Assembly (NCBI GenBank): GCA_011042225.1
Contig: DQXT01000136.1
Location: forward strand, 1-42,832
Direction: 5' to 3'
Source: Deltaproteobacteria bacterium
Lineage (GTDB): Bacteria; Desulfobacterota; Dissulfuribacteria; Dissulfuribacterales; UBA3076
Length of the DNA stretch: 42,832 bases
The notes below the pieces were generated by a model. That model did not search any database, was not told the origin of the DNA, and was given only the letters and a program-made list of their open reading frames with translations. Of this stretch, positions 1 through 9,041 are shown one piece after another. Each line of letters begins with the position of its first letter. Within the stretch, counting starts at the first letter, position 1. The position numbers and the translations under genes are program-made.

Positions 1-81
1 AAATGCGGCCTTTCCTGTTATTTCTAAAATGTGCGCCGTTTTTGGATCGTAGCCTGCAATACATCTTTCAATTCTTCTCAT
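1..81 (-). CDS. Partial CDS running off the left edge (N-terminus MRRIERCIAGYDPKTAHILEITGKAAF)
   Basis: Open minus-strand frame from an ATG at 81-79 to the window edge; too short to assign. Confidence 0.3.
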   Translation of the reverse strand, partial: MRRIERCIAGYDPKTAHILEITGKAAF

Positions 82-204
82 ATGTTTTCTTCTAATGAGG
101 CTTGATACGCGCTACTGTTTGTTTGCGGGTCCTTATCGTCGTTCGGGTTATAAAAATTATTGATATCTGAAGACTGAAAATGAATTATGAATTTTATAAG
201 GTTC

Positions 205-699
205 TTAGGATTGTTTGCCGGTAATTCGTAGAAAATGCCATGCCAAGAGAACCCCGCCGATGGTTATGGCAGAATCTGCGAGGTTGAAGGCCGGCCAGTG
301 ATATGAACCTAAAAAAAAGTCTAAAAAGTCAATAACAGATCTATGGCGTATTCTGTCTATAAGGTTTCCCAGTGCCCCTCCGAACACCAAAGAAGTTCCC
401 CAAAAAAGTTGATGGCCGCGACTCCGCGAGCTTTTATAGAGATAAAGGAGGGCTGCGAGGGCGACCACGCTTATTACCTGGAAAAATATGTGACGCCATT
501 TATCAGAACCTGCCAGAAATCCAAATGCCGCTCCAGTGTTGGTTATGTATGTAATATTAAAAAATCCTTGGAAAACCGGTCTTGTTTCATGGAGGTTAAG
601 GTTGGAGACTATAATGGCCTTGGTGGTCTGATCTGAAAGCACGATCAGGAAAGCAACGAATAAAAAGGATTTTATTGAAAAAGGTTTAGACAGGGTCAT
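205..699 (-). CDS. lspA: Lipoprotein signal peptidase (SPase II)
   Basis: 164 aa with NTGAAFG, GGALGNLIDRIRHRSVIDFLDF and FNLADSAI motifs typical of LspA; multiple TM segments. Confidence 0.96.
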   Translation of the reverse strand: MTLSKPFSIKSFLFVAFLIVLSDQTTKAIIVSNLNLHETRPVFQGFFNITYITNTGAAFGFLAGSDKWRHIFFQVISVVALAALLYLYKSSRSRGHQLFWGTSLVFGGALGNLIDRIRHRSVIDFLDFFLGSYHWPAFNLADSAITIGGVLLAWHFLRITGKQS

Positions 700-2081
700 G
701 GTTTGGAGCCTTCCTGATTTTTGTCCTTTTTAAGGTCTTTATATGATTCGCTGTCCGGTGAAAGCAGCTTCATGGCCTTATCTTTGTGATATTGGGCGGA
801 TTGCTGATTTCCAATGGCCTTATAGTGACGATAGAAATACTCATGTGCCTCCCCATGTCTTTCGAGGGCGGCGAAACATCTTCCCATCTGCAGGTAAATA
901 CTTGCAGGATCAGGCCAGGATTTTTTCAGTGTTTTAAGTATGGGTAGTGCCTCAGACGGCTTTCCCAGCTCAAGGTAGGCCCTGGCCAAAAAGAACTTGG
1001 CGGTTGAATCTCCAGGATGTCTTTTGCTGTATGGACCCAATATAGAGGCGGCCTTTTTATATTTTCCTGCTGCAAAGTAAGCCCTTCCCTGATCTACCTT
1101 AAATCCAGATTTTTCCGGGGCTGAAGACACAAGGTTATCAAATGCCTTAATGGCTTTATCATATTCTCTGGCGGCGAGGAGTGATTGGGCAAGACCATAA
1201 AGGAGAAGTATATCATTTGGACTGGTATTGAGTTCTTGCTGATAATATTTCATCATGACCATCGGATCATGAGTTAAGATCCTGGTTTTGACCTGTAGCT
1301 TTCTTAATTCGAACCGGTCTTCCTGGAATTTTTGTATGCATCGCTCTCGTTCCCAAAGGTCCTCCAGATAGGTTATCCTCTCGCCGGCTCCCGGGTGGGT
1401 GGAAAGATAACTAGGTATGGCGCTTGTCCCAAGCCAGCGATATTTCTGCATTTTCTTTAAGACGGTAAGCAGCCCACGAAAATCATATCCGGCCTTGCAT
1501 AACCATTGGCATGCTCTTCTATCCGCCTCTTCTTCATCTGTGCGGCTGTATTTAAGGGCGATAGACATATTTATGGCACCCGAGGTTGCAAATATGGCGG
1601 AACCCGCCTGTCCTTGTCCCAAAAATAGTCCTGCTATAGCAATTGCGGCGGTCGCTATGTTTATTCGCTGCATTCGATCCATGCGCCTGGCTATATGTCT
1701 ACCCTGAACGTGGCCTATCTCATGGGCCAAAACGCACACAAGTTCATTTTCAGTATCGATTACCTCAAGCAGACCCGTATGCACGAATACGAGTCCTCCG
1801 GGCATGGCAAAGGCATTTAGGCCATCATCCTGTATGACGAAAAACTCATAATCAAAAAATTTGCCATCAACTTGGTCAAGCACCTTTTGGCCTACACGGG
1901 ACACATATCCTACAATTTCCGGATCCTTTATCAGGGGGACCCGGGACTCAACCTGGTGCAGCAATCTATTCCTAAGTTCCCGTTCTTTCTCAACAGACAT
2001 CATTGCGGAAAGGGGCGAGGCCCAAATCATATAGGCCAAGGCGAAAATAAAAAGAAGAGAAAGGCGATTACACATAAACAT
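696..2081 (-). CDS. bepA: M48 family metalloprotease with TPR repeats (BepA/YfgC-like)
   Basis: Signal peptide, HExxH in VLAHEIGHVQGRH, C-terminal TPR-like repeats; overlaps lspA by 4 nt. Confidence 0.88.
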   Translation of the reverse strand: MFMCNRLSLLFIFALAYMIWASPLSAMMSVEKERELRNRLLHQVESRVPLIKDPEIVGYVSRVGQKVLDQVDGKFFDYEFFVIQDDGLNAFAMPGGLVFVHTGLLEVIDTENELVCVLAHEIGHVQGRHIARRMDRMQRINIATAAIAIAGLFLGQGQAGSAIFATSGAINMSIALKYSRTDEEEADRRACQWLCKAGYDFRGLLTVLKKMQKYRWLGTSAIPSYLSTHPGAGERITYLEDLWERERCIQKFQEDRFELRKLQVKTRILTHDPMVMMKYYQQELNTSPNDILLLYGLAQSLLAAREYDKAIKAFDNLVSSAPEKSGFKVDQGRAYFAAGKYKKAASILGPYSKRHPGDSTAKFFLARAYLELGKPSEALPILKTLKKSWPDPASIYLQMGRCFAALERHGEAHEYFYRHYKAIGNQQSAQYHKDKAMKLLSPDSESYKDLKKDKNQEGSKP

Positions 2082-2238
2082 ATGGTTGATTCGACCGAAA
2101 AATTCGATCTGCTGCGTTGCTTCAATTTTTCATCGGCTGCGATATGTGCGCAAAATAGAGTAAGTCCTTTATAATATATACGTTATTATAATAGTCAAAT
2201 CGCTTTAATTAAAAAATCGGGTTTACTTGATTATTGAA

Positions 2239-3051
2239 TTATGTAGTTCTTTTGTTTTTTGCACCTTTCTTTCTACCGGCTCCGGTCTTTTTCCATGCAT
2301 GGTCGCGGTCGCCGAATTTCCCTTTTCTGTTTTTTTTGTCAAGCCCAGATGAAATTATGTGAGAAGGTGTGTCACGGAGTACAAAAGCCCCAATTTTTTC
2401 AAGCAGTGGGGCATCGCCCCCTGGAATTTTTCTGCTGTCAGGCCTTGCCTTGCTCAATTTGGATTTTTTGCGCTTGTCTTTTTCTTTAACAGGGGGAGGT
2501 GCTGGTATTTTCATCCATTGAACATCCATGCCTTCAACAAGATATATAGCCTTGCCGGCCCTTCTAAAGACCACACCTGCCTCATTACTCTTAAGAGCGG
2601 ATATTTCCGCTATAATTGGGTGTTTGTCTCGGCGCTTTCCGATTTTTAAAGCCATTTCCTTTTCTGTGGATAATACAATCCACTTCTTGTTAACACTTGA
2701 TTGCAGACCGTGAGCCATGACGTGCCCATGGGCTTTTGGTCTTATGCTGACGTAAAGCAATTCAGGGGGTTTGGCTTCATTGTATATCGTAAGATCAGGG
2801 CGTTGTGATTCCGGTCTAACCCTGACATAGTTTTCCTGATATTCGAATTTTTCCGGCTTGTAGAGAGAAAGGAATTGTATTAACCCCCTCGGGGTAATGT
2901 GGGACATCCCGGTCTCTTCATCAAGTGCCCGATGGAGTTCTTTGATGGAAAGCCATCCGCCTTTATCCAAGACTATGCCAAAGGCATCCGGACGTCGCCC
3001 CAGCATGACAAAAAGGATCTTCTCCAACCGTTTTAATGCTCGCTTGTCCAT
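2239..3051 (-). CDS. Divergent KptA/Tpt1-like (RNA 2'-phosphotransferase fold) protein with Lys-rich C-terminal tail
   Basis: N-terminus RLEKILFVMLGRRPDAFGIVLDKGGWLSIKEL resembles the KptA LSKxLSxxLRHxPxxxGLxLDxxGW block; later segments align by eye to the KptA core, but catalytic motifs look substituted. Confidence 0.55.
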   Translation of the reverse strand: MDKRALKRLEKILFVMLGRRPDAFGIVLDKGGWLSIKELHRALDEETGMSHITPRGLIQFLSLYKPEKFEYQENYVRVRPESQRPDLTIYNEAKPPELLYVSIRPKAHGHVMAHGLQSSVNKKWIVLSTEKEMALKIGKRRDKHPIIAEISALKSNEAGVVFRRAGKAIYLVEGMDVQWMKIPAPPPVKEKDKRKKSKLSKARPDSRKIPGGDAPLLEKIGAFVLRDTPSHIISSGLDKKNRKGKFGDRDHAWKKTGAGRKKGAKNKRTT

Positions 3052-3185
3052 AACCCTTGCTTTTAATGATCAATTTAATGCGGTTCCGGCATTCTCCTGC
3101 TTTGAAGAAAGCAGGTATTTATATTATGGTTTGTATGATAAAATAAATACAAAGAGGTTCTGTTATATATTTTATAGAAAAGAGC

Positions 3186-3494
3186 ATGAAAGATAAAGAG
3201 ACCTTTCTGTTTTCGGCACTTGTTGCCGAAGAAGATATTAAGAGGGAAAAAACCAAGGCCAGAGAGATCAGGCGCAGCCGGTGGTGGCGCCAAAAGTGTG
3301 CTCAAGGGGTTTGTTTTTACTGTGGGAGCCGTGTGGGGTCCGCTAATCTTACAATGGATCATGTGGTTCCGCTGGTTCGCGGCGGTCTAAGCATTAAGAA
3401 CAACTTGGTGCCGGCCTGTAAGGAATGCAATAACAACAAAAAATATCTGCTACCCATGGAGTGGGAAGAATATATTAAGAGCCGAAAGGAGTAA
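3186..3494 (+). CDS. HNH endonuclease
   Basis: CFYCG...TMDHVVPLVRGG...NLVPACKECNNNK: CxxC / DH / CxxC HNH signature. Confidence 0.9.
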   Translation: MKDKETFLFSALVAEEDIKREKTKAREIRRSRWWRQKCAQGVCFYCGSRVGSANLTMDHVVPLVRGGLSIKNNLVPACKECNNNKKYLLPMEWEEYIKSRKE

Positions 3495-3500
3495 AGCATA

Positions 3501-4130
3501 GTGAAAAGTGACCTGTTTTTTCGGTCTTTAGTTAGTTTAAGAAAAGGGATAACTTTTATTATGTTGATTGCCGGTGTTGTTTTTTGTCCCTTATGGCAGG
3601 CTGTTGCGGCAACTGACGACACCGAAGCGGAGAAAGCCCCTGTGGGAGACGAGTACCTAATTGGTCCCACAGACATTCTAGAGATTCATATTTGGAGAGA
3701 ACCCGATCTCTCCCGCACGATACCCGTGCGCCCTGATGGTAAGATAACCTTGCCTCTATTGAACGATGTGCAGGCCTCCGGACTCACTCCCATGGAGCTA
3801 AAGGCCGGAATTGAAAAGGGGTTGGCCAAGTTTATAGAATCCCCTGTAGTGTCGGTCGCTGTCCAGGAAATACACAGCAAGAACATATTTGTATTGGGAC
3901 AGGTTGAATCTCCAGGCCAGTATCCACTTCAGCAGGATCTGACAGTAGTTCAGGCACTTTCCTTGGCAGGAGGTCTTGCAGAGTGGGCGGACCAGAGTGG
4001 TATTGTTATCCTGCGCAAGGAAAATGGAAAGCAAAGGCGAATCAAGTTTAATTACAAGGATGTTTCAAAGGGTAAACACCTAGAGGAAAATATAGTCTTA
4101 AAGGCAGGTGATACCATTATAGTGCCCTAG
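3501..4130 (+). CDS. Polysaccharide export protein (Wza/SLBB type)
   Basis: GTG start; signal peptide; YLIGPTDILEIHIWREPDLSRTIPVRPDGKITLPLLNDVQASGLTP and SLBB-like FVLGQVESPGQYPL. Confidence 0.92.
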   Translation: MKSDLFFRSLVSLRKGITFIMLIAGVVFCPLWQAVAATDDTEAEKAPVGDEYLIGPTDILEIHIWREPDLSRTIPVRPDGKITLPLLNDVQASGLTPMELKAGIEKGLAKFIESPVVSVAVQEIHSKNIFVLGQVESPGQYPLQQDLTVVQALSLAGGLAEWADQSGIVILRKENGKQRRIKFNYKDVSKGKHLEENIVLKAGDTIIVP

Positions 4131-4155
4131 CTTCTATATCGCGAGGTAAATCGAT

Positions 4156-5442
4156 ATGCAACCATTCGGTTTTTACCATTTGTGTTTTTTAAAACGAGTT
4201 TCTATCTTGGTTTTAATTGCTGTCTTGTTTGTCGGTAATTCATGGGCCGAATGGCATTTTTTGCCGGCACTCGATCTGGAAGAGCGTTATGACAGCAATA
4301 TGTATTTGAGTTCCGACAACGAGACCTCTGATTTTATAACCCGACTCAGTCCTGAATTAAGACTGGAAGATGTCAGTGCAACCAGGACCTTTGCTGCCAG
4401 CTATATCATGCATATGTATCATTTTGATCGTCATGATGAGAACAATTATATCGGGCACTCGGCCGAATTAAGCTGGGATCAAAGGCTAAGCCGGAATCTG
4501 TCCTGGCATATAATGAATAGTTACACCAGATCCGAGGAACCCCTGGAAGAGGATCCTGAGTATACCGGGGTAAGAGAGACCAGGAATATGTATACCAGAA
4601 ACTCAGTAGATACTGGATTTACTTATCGGTTCGGCCAAGAGGACAGGGTAACCATATCTTATCTTGACAGCCGTCTTCAAAACAGAGATCCGGATATTGA
4701 AGATGATGTTGAATATGGTCCCGGCCTGGAGCTGGAATATTGGCTTACCCAGCGTCACGGTCTACTGCTGGATTATTCCTGGAGCAGAATAGATTATGAA
4801 CACGATCCATCCGACCAAATGGATGAGATGGTTTTTGTCTATCAGTGGCGGCGGTCTCCACACACTACGCTGCATGTGGACTATGGGCTTGTGCTTTTTT
4901 CCTCTAAGGCCCTGGCGGCAGAAGAAGGGAACGACGACTATAATGTGCAGAGTATAGCCGCGGGTTTTGGTCATGATTTTGGGCCATTATGGAACCTGAC
5001 AGGATCTTTTGGTTACTTTTTCTTTAATCCTAAGGAATCAGAGTCAGGTGATGGACCTGTATATCATCTCTCTTTGGGGCGCAGTTTTGCCAGGGGCTCT
5101 GTAACTCTCACTGGTGACGGTGGCTACAGGTTGGATTATTCCGGCGCGGATGCCGAGGGTTTTACAGAGTACAGAGGTCTGTCTCTTTCATCTGCCTATA
5201 CCGTGTCTCCAAGGACCGAGCTGTATACAACCGCTTCATACATGTATGAGAAGGCCGAGGAAGAAGAGCGCACAAGAGATGAAACCTGGGGTGTCTCGGC
5301 AGGCATATCCTACGAGATATCTTCCTGGCTCACCGGGGCTGTCGAGTTGACACAGCGGGAGAGAAACTCTTCCGATGAAGAGGATGAATACAGAGACAGC
5401 CTTATGCTCTTAAGACTCAGAGGCACCTATGAATGGAGATAG
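4156..5442 (+). CDS. Outer-membrane beta-barrel protein of EPS locus
   Basis: Signal peptide then alternating aromatic beta-strand pattern; position between Wza and Wzz homologues. Confidence 0.75.
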   Translation: MQPFGFYHLCFLKRVSILVLIAVLFVGNSWAEWHFLPALDLEERYDSNMYLSSDNETSDFITRLSPELRLEDVSATRTFAASYIMHMYHFDRHDENNYIGHSAELSWDQRLSRNLSWHIMNSYTRSEEPLEEDPEYTGVRETRNMYTRNSVDTGFTYRFGQEDRVTISYLDSRLQNRDPDIEDDVEYGPGLELEYWLTQRHGLLLDYSWSRIDYEHDPSDQMDEMVFVYQWRRSPHTTLHVDYGLVLFSSKALAAEEGNDDYNVQSIAAGFGHDFGPLWNLTGSFGYFFFNPKESESGDGPVYHLSLGRSFARGSVTLTGDGGYRLDYSGADAEGFTEYRGLSLSSAYTVSPRTELYTTASYMYEKAEEEERTRDETWGVSAGISYEISSWLTGAVELTQRERNSSDEEDEYRDSLMLLRLRGTYEWR

Positions 5443-7127
5443 TCGCCGACAAGGGCATATACAAAGAAGTCCATACCTGGGAATTTTATAGAAGAGGCTT
5501 AAGACTGAAAGCCATGGCGGCCATACAGAGCGGACAAAAGTCCATAGATATTTATCTATATCTTTCCCTGCTTTTTCGCAGGAAGTGGGAAATCGTCTTC
5601 GGTATGATCCCGTTTCTGTTGGCAGGTGTGATATACTGCCTTTTGGCCACCAAGATTTATAGTACCAGCACTACCATAGTAGTTGTGCCACAACGGGTCC
5701 CGGAGGCATATATACGGTCTACAGTGACCGGAGATATTGATGAGCGCATCAGAGGTATATGGCAAAAGGTCACCAGCCGGACAAGTCTTGAGCGAATTAT
5801 TGAGCAGTTTGACCTCTATGCCGAGGCCAGAGAGGGGCTTCCGATGGAGACGGTTGTAGAGGTAATGAGAAGTAAGATCAAAATAGACAGTCCCAGAACA
5901 GCCCGCACAAACGCATTTATTCTGTCTTATGAGGGGAAGGATCCTATTGCCGTTACGAGGGTAGTCAATGCCCTGGCCAACATGTTTATTGAAGAAAATC
6001 TTAAATTAAGGGAGACGCAGGCCAAGGGCACTGCAGAGTTTCTATCCGAGGAGCTGGAGAAGGTCTATAGTGAGTTGAAGCGCCGAGAAGAGGCACTTAA
6101 AGAGTATAAGATGGAACACATGGGTGAGCTTCCCGAGCAGAGGGACAGCAACCTGGCGATGCTCCAGCGTCTTCAGGAAGAAGTTGAGACGCTGCAAGAA
6201 AATATCAGGAGAGCTGAAGACAGAAAGTTGTTATTACAGCGCCAAATTGCAGAAGAGCGGAGTAACCTGAGTTTAGCCTCTGATCTTTCCGGTTCTCAAG
6301 AGGGTGGTGTCACTCAGGCCCCGACTACCCTGGAAGGCCTGAGGGAAAGGCTTAAATCCCTTAGAATCCGGTATACCGATACCCATCCGGATGTTGTGAG
6401 TGTCAGAAATCTTATTGCCAAGCTTGAGAAGGAGCAGAATATGCAAAGCCCGGCATCGGATAGTGAAGAAACGGAAGAAGAAGAGGAAAGCGGCGCTATG
6501 GTTGATGCCGGAAGCCCTGCGAACTCCGTCATCGTGGGGCTTCAGTATCAGGTGAAGGGTTTGGACTTTGATATTAAGGCATCAAGGGAGGCATGTGATA
6601 AGATCCGGAAACAGATAGTTGTGTATCAGTCGCGTATTGAAAATACGCCCCGGAGAGAACAGGAGCTGCTTGATCTATCGCGCGATTATGAAAATCTGAG
6701 GACCTCCTATGAAAACTTGTTGAATCGCAAGATAGAGGCCGAGCAGGCAGCAGCTCTGGAAAGGAGACAAAAGGGTGAGCAGTTCAGGGTGATTGATCCG
6801 GCTAGAGTACCGGAAACATATATCAAGCCCGATGTAAAAAAGATTTTAGCCATGGCCCTTGTCCTGGCCGCAGGCGCAGGTCTGGGATTGGCCTTGGGCC
6901 GGGAGTATCTAAGTAATGTATTTTATGATCCAGGAGATGTTAAAAAGGCCTTAGACATCCCTGTTCTGGCCTGTGTACCCCTTCTTTTGACTGATGCCGA
7001 ACGTCGGAAAAAGAGGCTCGCCGCCTTTTTTTTCGGTACTTTAGCAGTGGCTGGTTATGCAGTGATAACAGTCCTTTTATTTATTCTATGGAGCAGGGGC
7101 CCCGGTGCCCTTGAAGGACTTTTCTAA
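5433..7127 (+). CDS. Chain-length determinant (Wzz/GNVR) family protein; true start possibly at MAAIQ, nt 5514
   Basis: Two TM segments flanking a long coiled coil; C-terminal RREQELLDLSRDYENLRTSYENLLNRKIEAEQA block and PARVPETYIKPD. Confidence 0.9.
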   Translation: MEIVADKGIYKEVHTWEFYRRGLRLKAMAAIQSGQKSIDIYLYLSLLFRRKWEIVFGMIPFLLAGVIYCLLATKIYSTSTTIVVVPQRVPEAYIRSTVTGDIDERIRGIWQKVTSRTSLERIIEQFDLYAEAREGLPMETVVEVMRSKIKIDSPRTARTNAFILSYEGKDPIAVTRVVNALANMFIEENLKLRETQAKGTAEFLSEELEKVYSELKRREEALKEYKMEHMGELPEQRDSNLAMLQRLQEEVETLQENIRRAEDRKLLLQRQIAEERSNLSLASDLSGSQEGGVTQAPTTLEGLRERLKSLRIRYTDTHPDVVSVRNLIAKLEKEQNMQSPASDSEETEEEEESGAMVDAGSPANSVIVGLQYQVKGLDFDIKASREACDKIRKQIVVYQSRIENTPRREQELLDLSRDYENLRTSYENLLNRKIEAEQAAALERRQKGEQFRVIDPARVPETYIKPDVKKILAMALVLAAGAGLGLALGREYLSNVFYDPGDVKKALDIPVLACVPLLLTDAERRKKRLAAFFFGTLAVAGYAVITVLLFILWSRGPGALEGLF

Positions 7128-7132
7128 ATCTT

Positions 7133-8158
7133 ATGTATCTCAGTTATTATGGATTAAATGAACACCCCTTTTCCATCTCGCCTGATCCAAACTTTTTATA
7201 TCTCAGCGATATCCATCGCGAGGGACTGGCCAATCTGACCTATGGAATTGCTCAAAGAAAAGGCTTTGTATTAATCACTGGTGATGTGGGTACCGGTAAA
7301 ACCACCTTAATATATGCCCTTCTTGCGCAAGTTCCACAGAAAGTGAGGGTTGCTTTCATATCCAGCCCTACTCTTACAAGAGAAGAGTTTTTTTATCTTT
7401 TAGCAGATGCATATAAATTGGGGGCGATTGAACACAAGGCCCACTTTCTCGTCAGATTTACACAGTTTTTAGAAAAGGCTTATGGCCGTGATGAAAACGT
7501 TGTGTTGATCGTGGACGAGGCACATTCTCTAACTCTCGAATTATTGGAGGAGATAAGGCTTCTTTCCAATCTGGAGAATTACTCTTACAAGCTTGTAAAC
7601 ATAATCCTGGTTGGGCAGCCCGAACTCAATGACAAACTATCCGGTCCTGAGATGAGGCCGCTGACACAGCGTATAACCCTAAAGTATCATTTGTCTTCCA
7701 TGACCTTCAATGATACGGCTAAATATATAGAGACACGTTTGATCAGGTCCGGAGCTAAAGACATAGGTATTTTTACTGAATCTGCAATACAAAGCCTTTA
7801 TGAATATGCCGGAGGCATTCCGAGATTAACAAATATCTTTGCAGACCACGCGCTTCTTACAGGTTATGTCAGGGGCCTGAAACGGATTGACAATAGAGTA
7901 ATAGAGGAGTGTGCAGCAGAACTCGGATTATCCGGCAGCAAAGAGGAGAAAGATAAAGACTGCACAAGGATTCCGCCTTATCTCAGATACAGAGGCCTCA
8001 TCAAAGCCGTTTTGATTATATGTATATCATTGGGGTTACTCGTTCTGTGGTGGGACGTACTGATGAATGAGGGTATTCTAACTAGTAGTATTTACAATAT
8101 TTTTGATGAAGATAATCCCATGGCTGGTCATGAATTGACTGTGAACGGCCTGGAATAA
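7133..8158 (+). CDS. XrtA-associated-type AAA ATPase (ExeA/GspA-like) with C-terminal TM
   Basis: MYLSYYGLNEHPFSISPDPNFLYLS; Walker A GDVGTGKTT; Walker B VVLIVDEAH. Confidence 0.9.
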   Translation: MYLSYYGLNEHPFSISPDPNFLYLSDIHREGLANLTYGIAQRKGFVLITGDVGTGKTTLIYALLAQVPQKVRVAFISSPTLTREEFFYLLADAYKLGAIEHKAHFLVRFTQFLEKAYGRDENVVLIVDEAHSLTLELLEEIRLLSNLENYSYKLVNIILVGQPELNDKLSGPEMRPLTQRITLKYHLSSMTFNDTAKYIETRLIRSGAKDIGIFTESAIQSLYEYAGGIPRLTNIFADHALLTGYVRGLKRIDNRVIEECAAELGLSGSKEEKDKDCTRIPPYLRYRGLIKAVLIICISLGLLVLWWDVLMNEGILTSSIYNIFDEDNPMAGHELTVNGLE

Positions 8159-8189
8159 AGAGTAAAATAGTTAAAAGGTAAAGAAAAAA

Positions 8190-9041
8190 ATGGGTAAGAT
8201 TGCCGATGCCCTGGAGAAGGCAGGGAAAGAGCAGGTACCAATTCGACATGAGAGGGATATCAAGCCGGTCTGTCAAGACAGGATTGACTCCGGGACGGAT
8301 TTTCAGGCTAAAGAAGAGGCGGTATCTGAAACAAAGGCCTTACAGGGTCCGGTTGATCCTAAGCTCGTGGTATTTCGAGATCCTTTTTCTCCTGCTTCGG
8401 AGCACTTTAAGATGCTTCGGTCCCAAATCCTTTATCCCAAGGACGGTAAGCGTCGCCGGCTTATACTTGTGACATCTGCCATGGAGGGTGCCGGCAAGAC
8501 CACAGTAGCATGTAACCTTTCAGTAAGCATTGCACAGAGTGTAGATCCTTATGTTCTCTTGATAGACGCCGACATCAGGAGATCATCTGTATGTAGTATG
8601 CTGGGCCTGGAGCCGGCCGAAGGGCTTTCAGAATATCTTCAGAGGAACGCGAACTTGTCCAAATACCTTATCAGGACCCCTATGACAAAGTTGACAGTTC
8701 TTCCCGCCGGCCGTTCAGTGACGAATCCTGCTGAACTTCTGACTTCCGCTAAAATGAGACATCTCTTTGAAGAGGCACGGGAGAGATATTCGGATCGTTT
8801 TATCATCGTGGATTCTCCTCCTGTCAACCTTGCTGCCGAGACCTTGAGTCTTTCTCAAAATGTCGATGCCGTGGTTTTTGTGGTTCGTTACGGTTTTACC
8901 GATAAGGATTTGATAGAAGAGGCCATAACAAAAGTGGGTGAGGACAAGATACTTGGAATTGTCTTTAACTGTTTTGAAAGTCCGCCCGGAAGGTATTCCT
9001 ATTATAAAAAGAGATATCCTTATTATAGTTCAAAATCATAA
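8190..9041 (+). CDS. CpsD/CapB-type BY-kinase (tyrosine autokinase)
   Basis: Walker A SAMEGAGKTT, Walker A' VLLIDADIRR, Walker B FIIVDSPP, Tyr-rich tail PGRYSYYKKRYPYYSSKS. Confidence 0.92.
   Translation: MGKIADALEKAGKEQVPIRHERDIKPVCQDRIDSGTDFQAKEEAVSETKALQGPVDPKLVVFRDPFSPASEHFKMLRSQILYPKDGKRRRLILVTSAMEGAGKTTVACNLSVSIAQSVDPYVLLIDADIRRSSVCSMLGLEPAEGLSEYLQRNANLSKYLIRTPMTKLTVLPAGRSVTNPAELLTSAKMRHLFEEARERYSDRFIIVDSPPVNLAAETLSLSQNVDAVVFVVRYGFTDKDLIEEAITKVGEDKILGIVFNCFESPPGRYSYYKKRYPYYSSKS

Follow-up and report, generated by a model that had tools for sequence, protein, structure and literature searches.

The locus and its kinship

The window, i.e. the whole 42,832-nucleotide stretch of DNA that was analysed, encodes on its minus strand a 270 aa protein related to Tpt1/KptA. 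The gene and the parts of its product are the following:

2239..3051, minus strand: putative pseudo-Tpt1 gene including the stop codon, 270 aa, ATG start (open reading frame and translation, PF01885 match)
2773..3051, minus strand: predicted N-terminal winged-helix (RNA) lobe, residues 1-93 (AlphaFold2, pLDDT mostly 81-93; lobe division as in Tpt1, PMC6333775)
2503..2772, minus strand: predicted ART (NAD+) lobe, residues 94-183 (AlphaFold2; Tpt1 proteins as Foldseek hits)
2242..2502, minus strand: basic C-terminal tail, residues 184-270, predicted to be disordered (pLDDT 31-43 over residues 191-270)

It had been noticed from the letters alone that the protein begins with a KptA/Tpt1-like block. 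This is borne out by a significant match to PF01885 (Tpt1/KptA; E=1.6e-6, 28.8 bits against a curated cut-off of 26) and by the match to the CthTpt1 structures 6ede/6e3a (E=1e-13). No other gene of the source genome matches PF01885. NCBIfam PRK00819 is hit at E=3e-19 and 69.6 bits; the equivalog cut-off of 239 for RNA 2'-phosphotransferase is not reached. Because the Pfam score lies just over its cut-off, CthTpt1 is matched clearly and the NCBIfam score falls far under the equivalog level, kinship with Tpt1/KptA as judged by sequence is secure, whereas membership as an enzyme is not.

Replacement of active-site and NAD+-binding residues

The essential tetrad of CthTpt1 comprises Arg18, His19, Arg68 and Arg121. 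In the same enzyme, Tyr80 is in contact with the phosphate to be transferred. NAD+ is bound at its adenosine ribose by His101 and Thr103 (HGT motif) and at its diphosphate by Arg121, Arg139 and Arg140 (PMC6333775). Numbers of the replaced residues are those of CthTpt1; R121, for example, corresponds to K122 of the window protein. Alignment with CthTpt1 and with the degenerate family members yielded the following features:

2995..3000, minus strand: G18-R19 in place of tetrad Arg18-His19 (LRH to LGR; CthTpt1 alignment)
2848..2850, minus strand: K68 in place of tetrad Arg68 (alignment)
2821..2823, minus strand: R77, a basic residue that is kept (Arg in 87% of the degenerate members; 95% with Lys included)
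2803..2814, minus strand: PESQ where CthTpt1 has YGHS (residues 80-83; alignment)
2743..2751, minus strand: V101-S102-I103 instead of the HGT that binds NAD+ (CthTpt1 alignment)
2686..2688, minus strand: K122 in place of tetrad Arg121 (RQYVHLS to KKWIVLS; alignment)
2674..2676, minus strand: V126 at the site of the conserved HVHLS histidine (Cth His125; alignment)
2629..2634, minus strand: R140-R141, kept as equivalents of the diphosphate-binding Arg139-Arg140 (alignment)

In the window protein, all four tetrad residues (now G18, R19, K68 and K122) and the HGT motif are replaced, and both diphosphate arginines are kept. The catalytic residues are thus not retained. The sequence-only reading had described LRH as LGR, the IRAxQGHS region as VRVRPESQ and the R-x-H-V-H-L-S region as KKWIVLS. 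These assignments hold in the alignment, in which R18 has become G18, H19 R19, YGHS PESQ, R121 K122 and H125 V126. It had also placed the Arg-His-Arg-Arg set of Tpt1 in these motifs. The replacement of the tetrad was correctly recognized, but the Arg of 'IRA' (R77) is kept and does not belong to the tetrad. The exchange of R68, the fourth tetrad residue, for K68 and that of H101-G-T103 for V-S-I had not been listed.

In Runella Tpt1, an alanine exchange of the Arg18 equivalent reduced the rate of step 1 380-fold and that of step 2 710-fold; for the equivalent of the second tetrad arginine, such an exchange reduced the rate of step 2 210-fold (PMC6333775). Since mutations at tetrad arginines impair catalysis so strongly, loss of activity is to be expected in the window protein, which is very probably not a Tpt1 2'-phosphotransferase.

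Predicted structure

An AlphaFold2 model of the window protein was built with eight sequences. Secondary structure is confident for residues 1-183, and the tail is disordered from residue 190 on. In a Foldseek search against the PDB, hits 1 to 21 are all Tpt1 proteins. Across both lobes, the model fits Tpt1 poorly (rmsd about 11 A); how the two lobes are oriented towards each other is therefore not well fixed in the model. The N-terminal lobe of Tpt1 resembles the RNA-binding winged helix of La-module proteins (PMC6333775). Foldseek matches of the model to La/LARP are weak (E about 0.5-1.3) and not significant.

Distribution in the phylum

Homologues were found by protein search in 52 of 99 relatives; the named ones among them are a Thermodesulfobacteriaceae bacterium and Deltaproteobacteria assembled from metagenomes. 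When 296 genomes from the phylum, each at least 90% complete, were searched with a profile, the Tpt1-like family was present in 101 (about one third), with exactly one copy each. One genome counted among these 101 (G138) has a weak partial match only. As each of the 101 genomes carries exactly one copy, the degenerate gene is not a spare duplicate beside an active one, and duplication followed by decay alongside an active copy is ruled out.

From both searches, 125 sequences were read, aligned and scored at R18, H19, R68, R121, H101 and T103. They fall into two classes: 117 retain at most two of the six key residues, 8 retain all six, and none is intermediate. Among the 117 degenerate sequences, 63 retain none of the residues, 41 one and 13 two. 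R18 is absent in 115 of them, and position 139 is Arg in 86% of the degenerate members. Chance is excluded as an explanation, since the same substitution pattern recurs in 117 sequences from the window's and other genomes. With PF01885, 123 and 134 bits were obtained for two tailed intact members, and 26-38 bits or no match for the degenerate members scanned.

The 8 intact sequences comprise one short protein and seven with a tail (genomes G049, G055, G082, G092, G120, G127 and G145; loci L027, L028, L033, L039, L104, L111 and L123). The seven loci provide a natural set for experimental comparison. A highly divergent subgroup that has lost R139, too, is found at L053 and L170-L174 (family f39, genomes of 1.6-1.8 Mb). 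The single f39 member scanned was not recognized by Pfam.

Phylogeny and the C-terminal tail

A tree was calculated from 156 core columns after removal of the catalytic, NAD+ and related positions, so that the catalytic trait could not drive it. The root was set by the canonical Tpt1 proteins and not inferred by the tree method. All 80 degenerate rows lie on one side of a branch with a support of 95/89 that occurs in 96% of the bootstrap trees. The canonical short Tpt1 proteins lie on one side of another branch (100/99), and the tailed intact proteins fall between canonical and degenerate forms. A conserved clade with the same substitutions, for which the sequence-only reading had suggested a search, does exist and spans the phylum. 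Together with the PF01885 match and the non-retained catalytic residues, this clade supports the pseudoenzyme proposed in that reading.

Canonical Tpt1 proteins terminate about 2-19 residues past the domain. The degenerate forms and the seven intact Tpt1 proteins of the phylum have in common a homologous basic tail with the motif PGSF...WK..RR, which other Tpt1 proteins lack. The window protein carries its own version of this motif:

2383..2391, minus strand: G-A-F, corresponding to PGSF (alignment of the degenerate family)

G221 of the motif is present in 92% of the degenerate members and in six of the seven tailed intact ones. With a profile built from degenerate tails, scores of 22-37 bits were obtained for the seven intact tails (best of 1400 shuffled tails: 13.6) and of 32.4 bits for the window tail. 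The Lys-rich tail noted earlier is real: it is rich in Lys/Arg, its homology extends throughout the family, and other Tpt1 proteins do not have it. When 26 genomes were searched with the tail profile, no other protein family matched, and a docking module shared with other proteins was rejected on this basis. In addition to this gene family, only a 66-residue frame in G016 (C92:2959-3144) was found, which matches the tail alone. G016 has no full-length copy by protein search, and the short frame is possibly a remnant or a contig artefact.

As the tail is common to intact and degenerate forms, the simplest order of events is a tail that preceded the catalytic loss. From the sequences, the basic tail was probably gained first, and catalysis was lost later, probably in a single event.

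Selection and conservation

Synonymous and non-synonymous substitution rates were calculated by the method of Nei and Gojobori with our own script, comparing the window gene with those of three congeners. The core has a dN of 0.09-0.14 and a dS of 0.37-0.56, i.e. a ratio of about 0.25; for the tail, dN/dS is 0.32-0.37. Selection on the degenerate gene is purifying. In the degenerate clade, basic residues are kept at positions 11 (98% K/R), 37, 77 (95%), 104, 106, 138 and 139, and a conserved glycine has been gained at Cth 165 (87%). The loss of the catalytic residues might be expected of a gene that decays without a function. Against this, the frame is open in about 100 species and single-copy, dN/dS is low, and new conserved positions such as the glycine at 165 have arisen. 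The dN/dS values and the retention across the phylum refute decay, to which we assign hardly any probability at all.

Genomic neighbourhood

Downstream of pseudo-Tpt1, the window encodes an M48 peptidase and then LspA. Before the gene, on the other strand, lie the gene for a small HNH protein and a gene set of exopolysaccharide type. The divergently oriented HNH endonuclease-like gene (3186-3491, plus strand; PF01844, 45.8 bits) is found beside pseudo-Tpt1 in about a dozen relatives, too (cluster c6). It is followed at 3501-9038 (plus strand) by a putative polysaccharide export/chain-length run, judged by eye to encode export, outer-membrane and chain-length proteins and an ATPase. A frequent arrangement in the window's order is HDOD - pseudo-Tpt1 - M48 peptidase - LspA. 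The HDOD-domain gene lies directly upstream of pseudo-Tpt1 at L066:6679-7557 and about 24 other loci in much of this order. Since it is missing in the window's genus and neighbours differ in other orders, no partner is claimed. Across the phylum, no conserved genomic partner was found; neighbours change between orders, and the neighbourhood was rejected as a guide to function. In G003 (L007:416-2644), the pseudo-Tpt1 frame continues without a stop into the M48 peptidase (743 aa), which is either a true fusion or an assembly error.

Other leads were not productive. RtcB is near-universal (258 of 296 genomes of the phylum), so its co-occurrence is uninformative. A 2H phosphoesterase gene is present in the source genome; it has no link to pseudo-Tpt1 and was rejected as a partner. 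A phage origin was dismissed, as the best phage matches are Tpt1 homologues with 21-28% identity, and cellular homologues are at least as close. Rfam models gave no match in window positions 1-8000.

Proposed function and alternatives

The branch, which very probably dropped the chemistry, kept fold, copy number and tail over the phylum, and this suggests that the protein is valuable apart from catalysis. The degenerate protein probably does a job different from Tpt1 chemistry, e.g. binding RNA. That it works by binding RNA we consider slightly better than an even guess. The ancestor would have been a Tpt1/KptA that already carried the basic C-terminal tail. The catalytic loss would have followed within the phylum, probably as one event in an ancestor, and the fold, the single-copy state and the tail would have been kept. 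The La-like winged helix and a basic face (positions 11, 77, 104, 106, 138 and 139) may grip RNA. The disordered Lys/Arg tail might add affinity or dock the protein to a ribonucleoprotein, e.g. tRNA or the ribosome. Any RNA binding would need another mode than that of Tpt1, because the residues with which Tpt1 touches the 2'- and 3'-phosphates of RNA are those that were lost. Absence of activity, RNA binding and an RNA target are what we infer, and the same applies to NAD+ binding and any partner. In its most specific form, the proposal is tentative and rather doubtful: a phylum-wide single-copy factor derived from a dead Tpt1 would bind structured RNA (tRNA/rRNA) via the La-like lobe and the tail, and the tail would have recruited the still-active ancestor to this RNA.

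Winged helix and Lys/Arg tail would suit DNA as well as RNA, and a DNA-binding or transcription-related role could be read from a sigma-70 type gene (cluster c11, recognized by eye) that adjoins pseudo-Tpt1 in some families and from the HDOD gene alongside in much of the window's order. The ancestor and the closest relatives, however, act on RNA, and neighbours are inconsistent over the phylum; we regard this role as unlikely. The protein might instead bind the ancestral ligand without turnover, as a reader of ADP-ribose, NAD+ or 2'-phospho-RNA that signals or protects. The La-like RNA lobe is kept in the AlphaFold2 model, as are R139, basic 138 and often 140, and CthTpt1 uses 139 and 140 to hold the NAD+ diphosphate (PMC6333775). 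In a reader, H101 and T103, which contact the adenosine, should have been preserved as well, but they are lost or variable, and so are the 2'-phosphate contacts R18, Y80 and, mostly, R68. As the adenosine-half contacts are gone in almost all members, binding of NAD+ or ADP-ribose is less likely, and we deem a reader decidedly improbable. Conservation of PGSF...WK..RR over the phylum, in this family only, and the disorder of the tail would fit a protein-interaction scaffold, e.g. a factor for ribosome assembly or RNase docking, with the tail doing the work and the Tpt1 domain as an inert platform. Core residues are conserved, too, and the tail evolves faster than the core, which makes a scaffold quite improbable. 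Catalytic residues vary among ART families and the ART lobe fold is retained, so that an ADP-ribosyltransferase with changed chemistry or substrate and another catalytic set might be imagined. The former catalytic positions are mostly V, I, L, A, P, G or variable, and no alternative polar set is conserved; an altered transferase is therefore very unlikely.

What bacterial Tpt1/KptA acts on in nature has long been a puzzle. The enzyme has been retained in bacteria although, to our knowledge, no natural 2'-phosphorylated substrate was known, and it is inessential where tested. A binding partner of pseudo-Tpt1 would directly hint at where the active tailed forms work. If pseudo-Tpt1 is indeed an RNA-binding factor, its target would also reveal the natural substrate of bacterial Tpt1. 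For annotation, the family is a trap: automated pipelines may label the degenerate proteins RNA 2'-phosphotransferase.

Comparison with known systems

In the open PMC literature, outside of which most subscription papers and preprints lie, our searches brought up no paper that describes an inactive clade of Tpt1/KptA. Archaeal KptA erases 2'-phosphouridine-47 of tRNA (PMC9095486), for which reason the archaeal tRNA U47 kinase ArkI would be a conceivable partner. For ARTC3, ARTC4 and possibly inactive PARPs, the ART fold is thought to have lost catalysis (PMC10789625). These pseudo-ARTs share this presumed loss with pseudo-Tpt1, but are eukaryotic and stand outside the Tpt1 family. La and LARP1 have a winged helix like that of the N-terminal Tpt1 lobe; no sequence relation to them was found, and La has no ART lobe. 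With Tpt1/KptA (PF01885; CthTpt1 6e3a, RslTpt1 7kw8 from Runella slithyformis, TkoKptA 9ld4), the window protein has in common the two-lobe fold, the sequence family, the motif order, R77 and R139. It differs from them in the replacement of tetrad, YGHS and HGT and in the addition of a C-terminal tail of about 60-90 residues. The tailed intact Tpt1 proteins of the phylum have the same domain and the homologous GPP...PGS[FV]...basic tail as the window protein, but, in contrast to it, all six catalytic and NAD+ residues intact.
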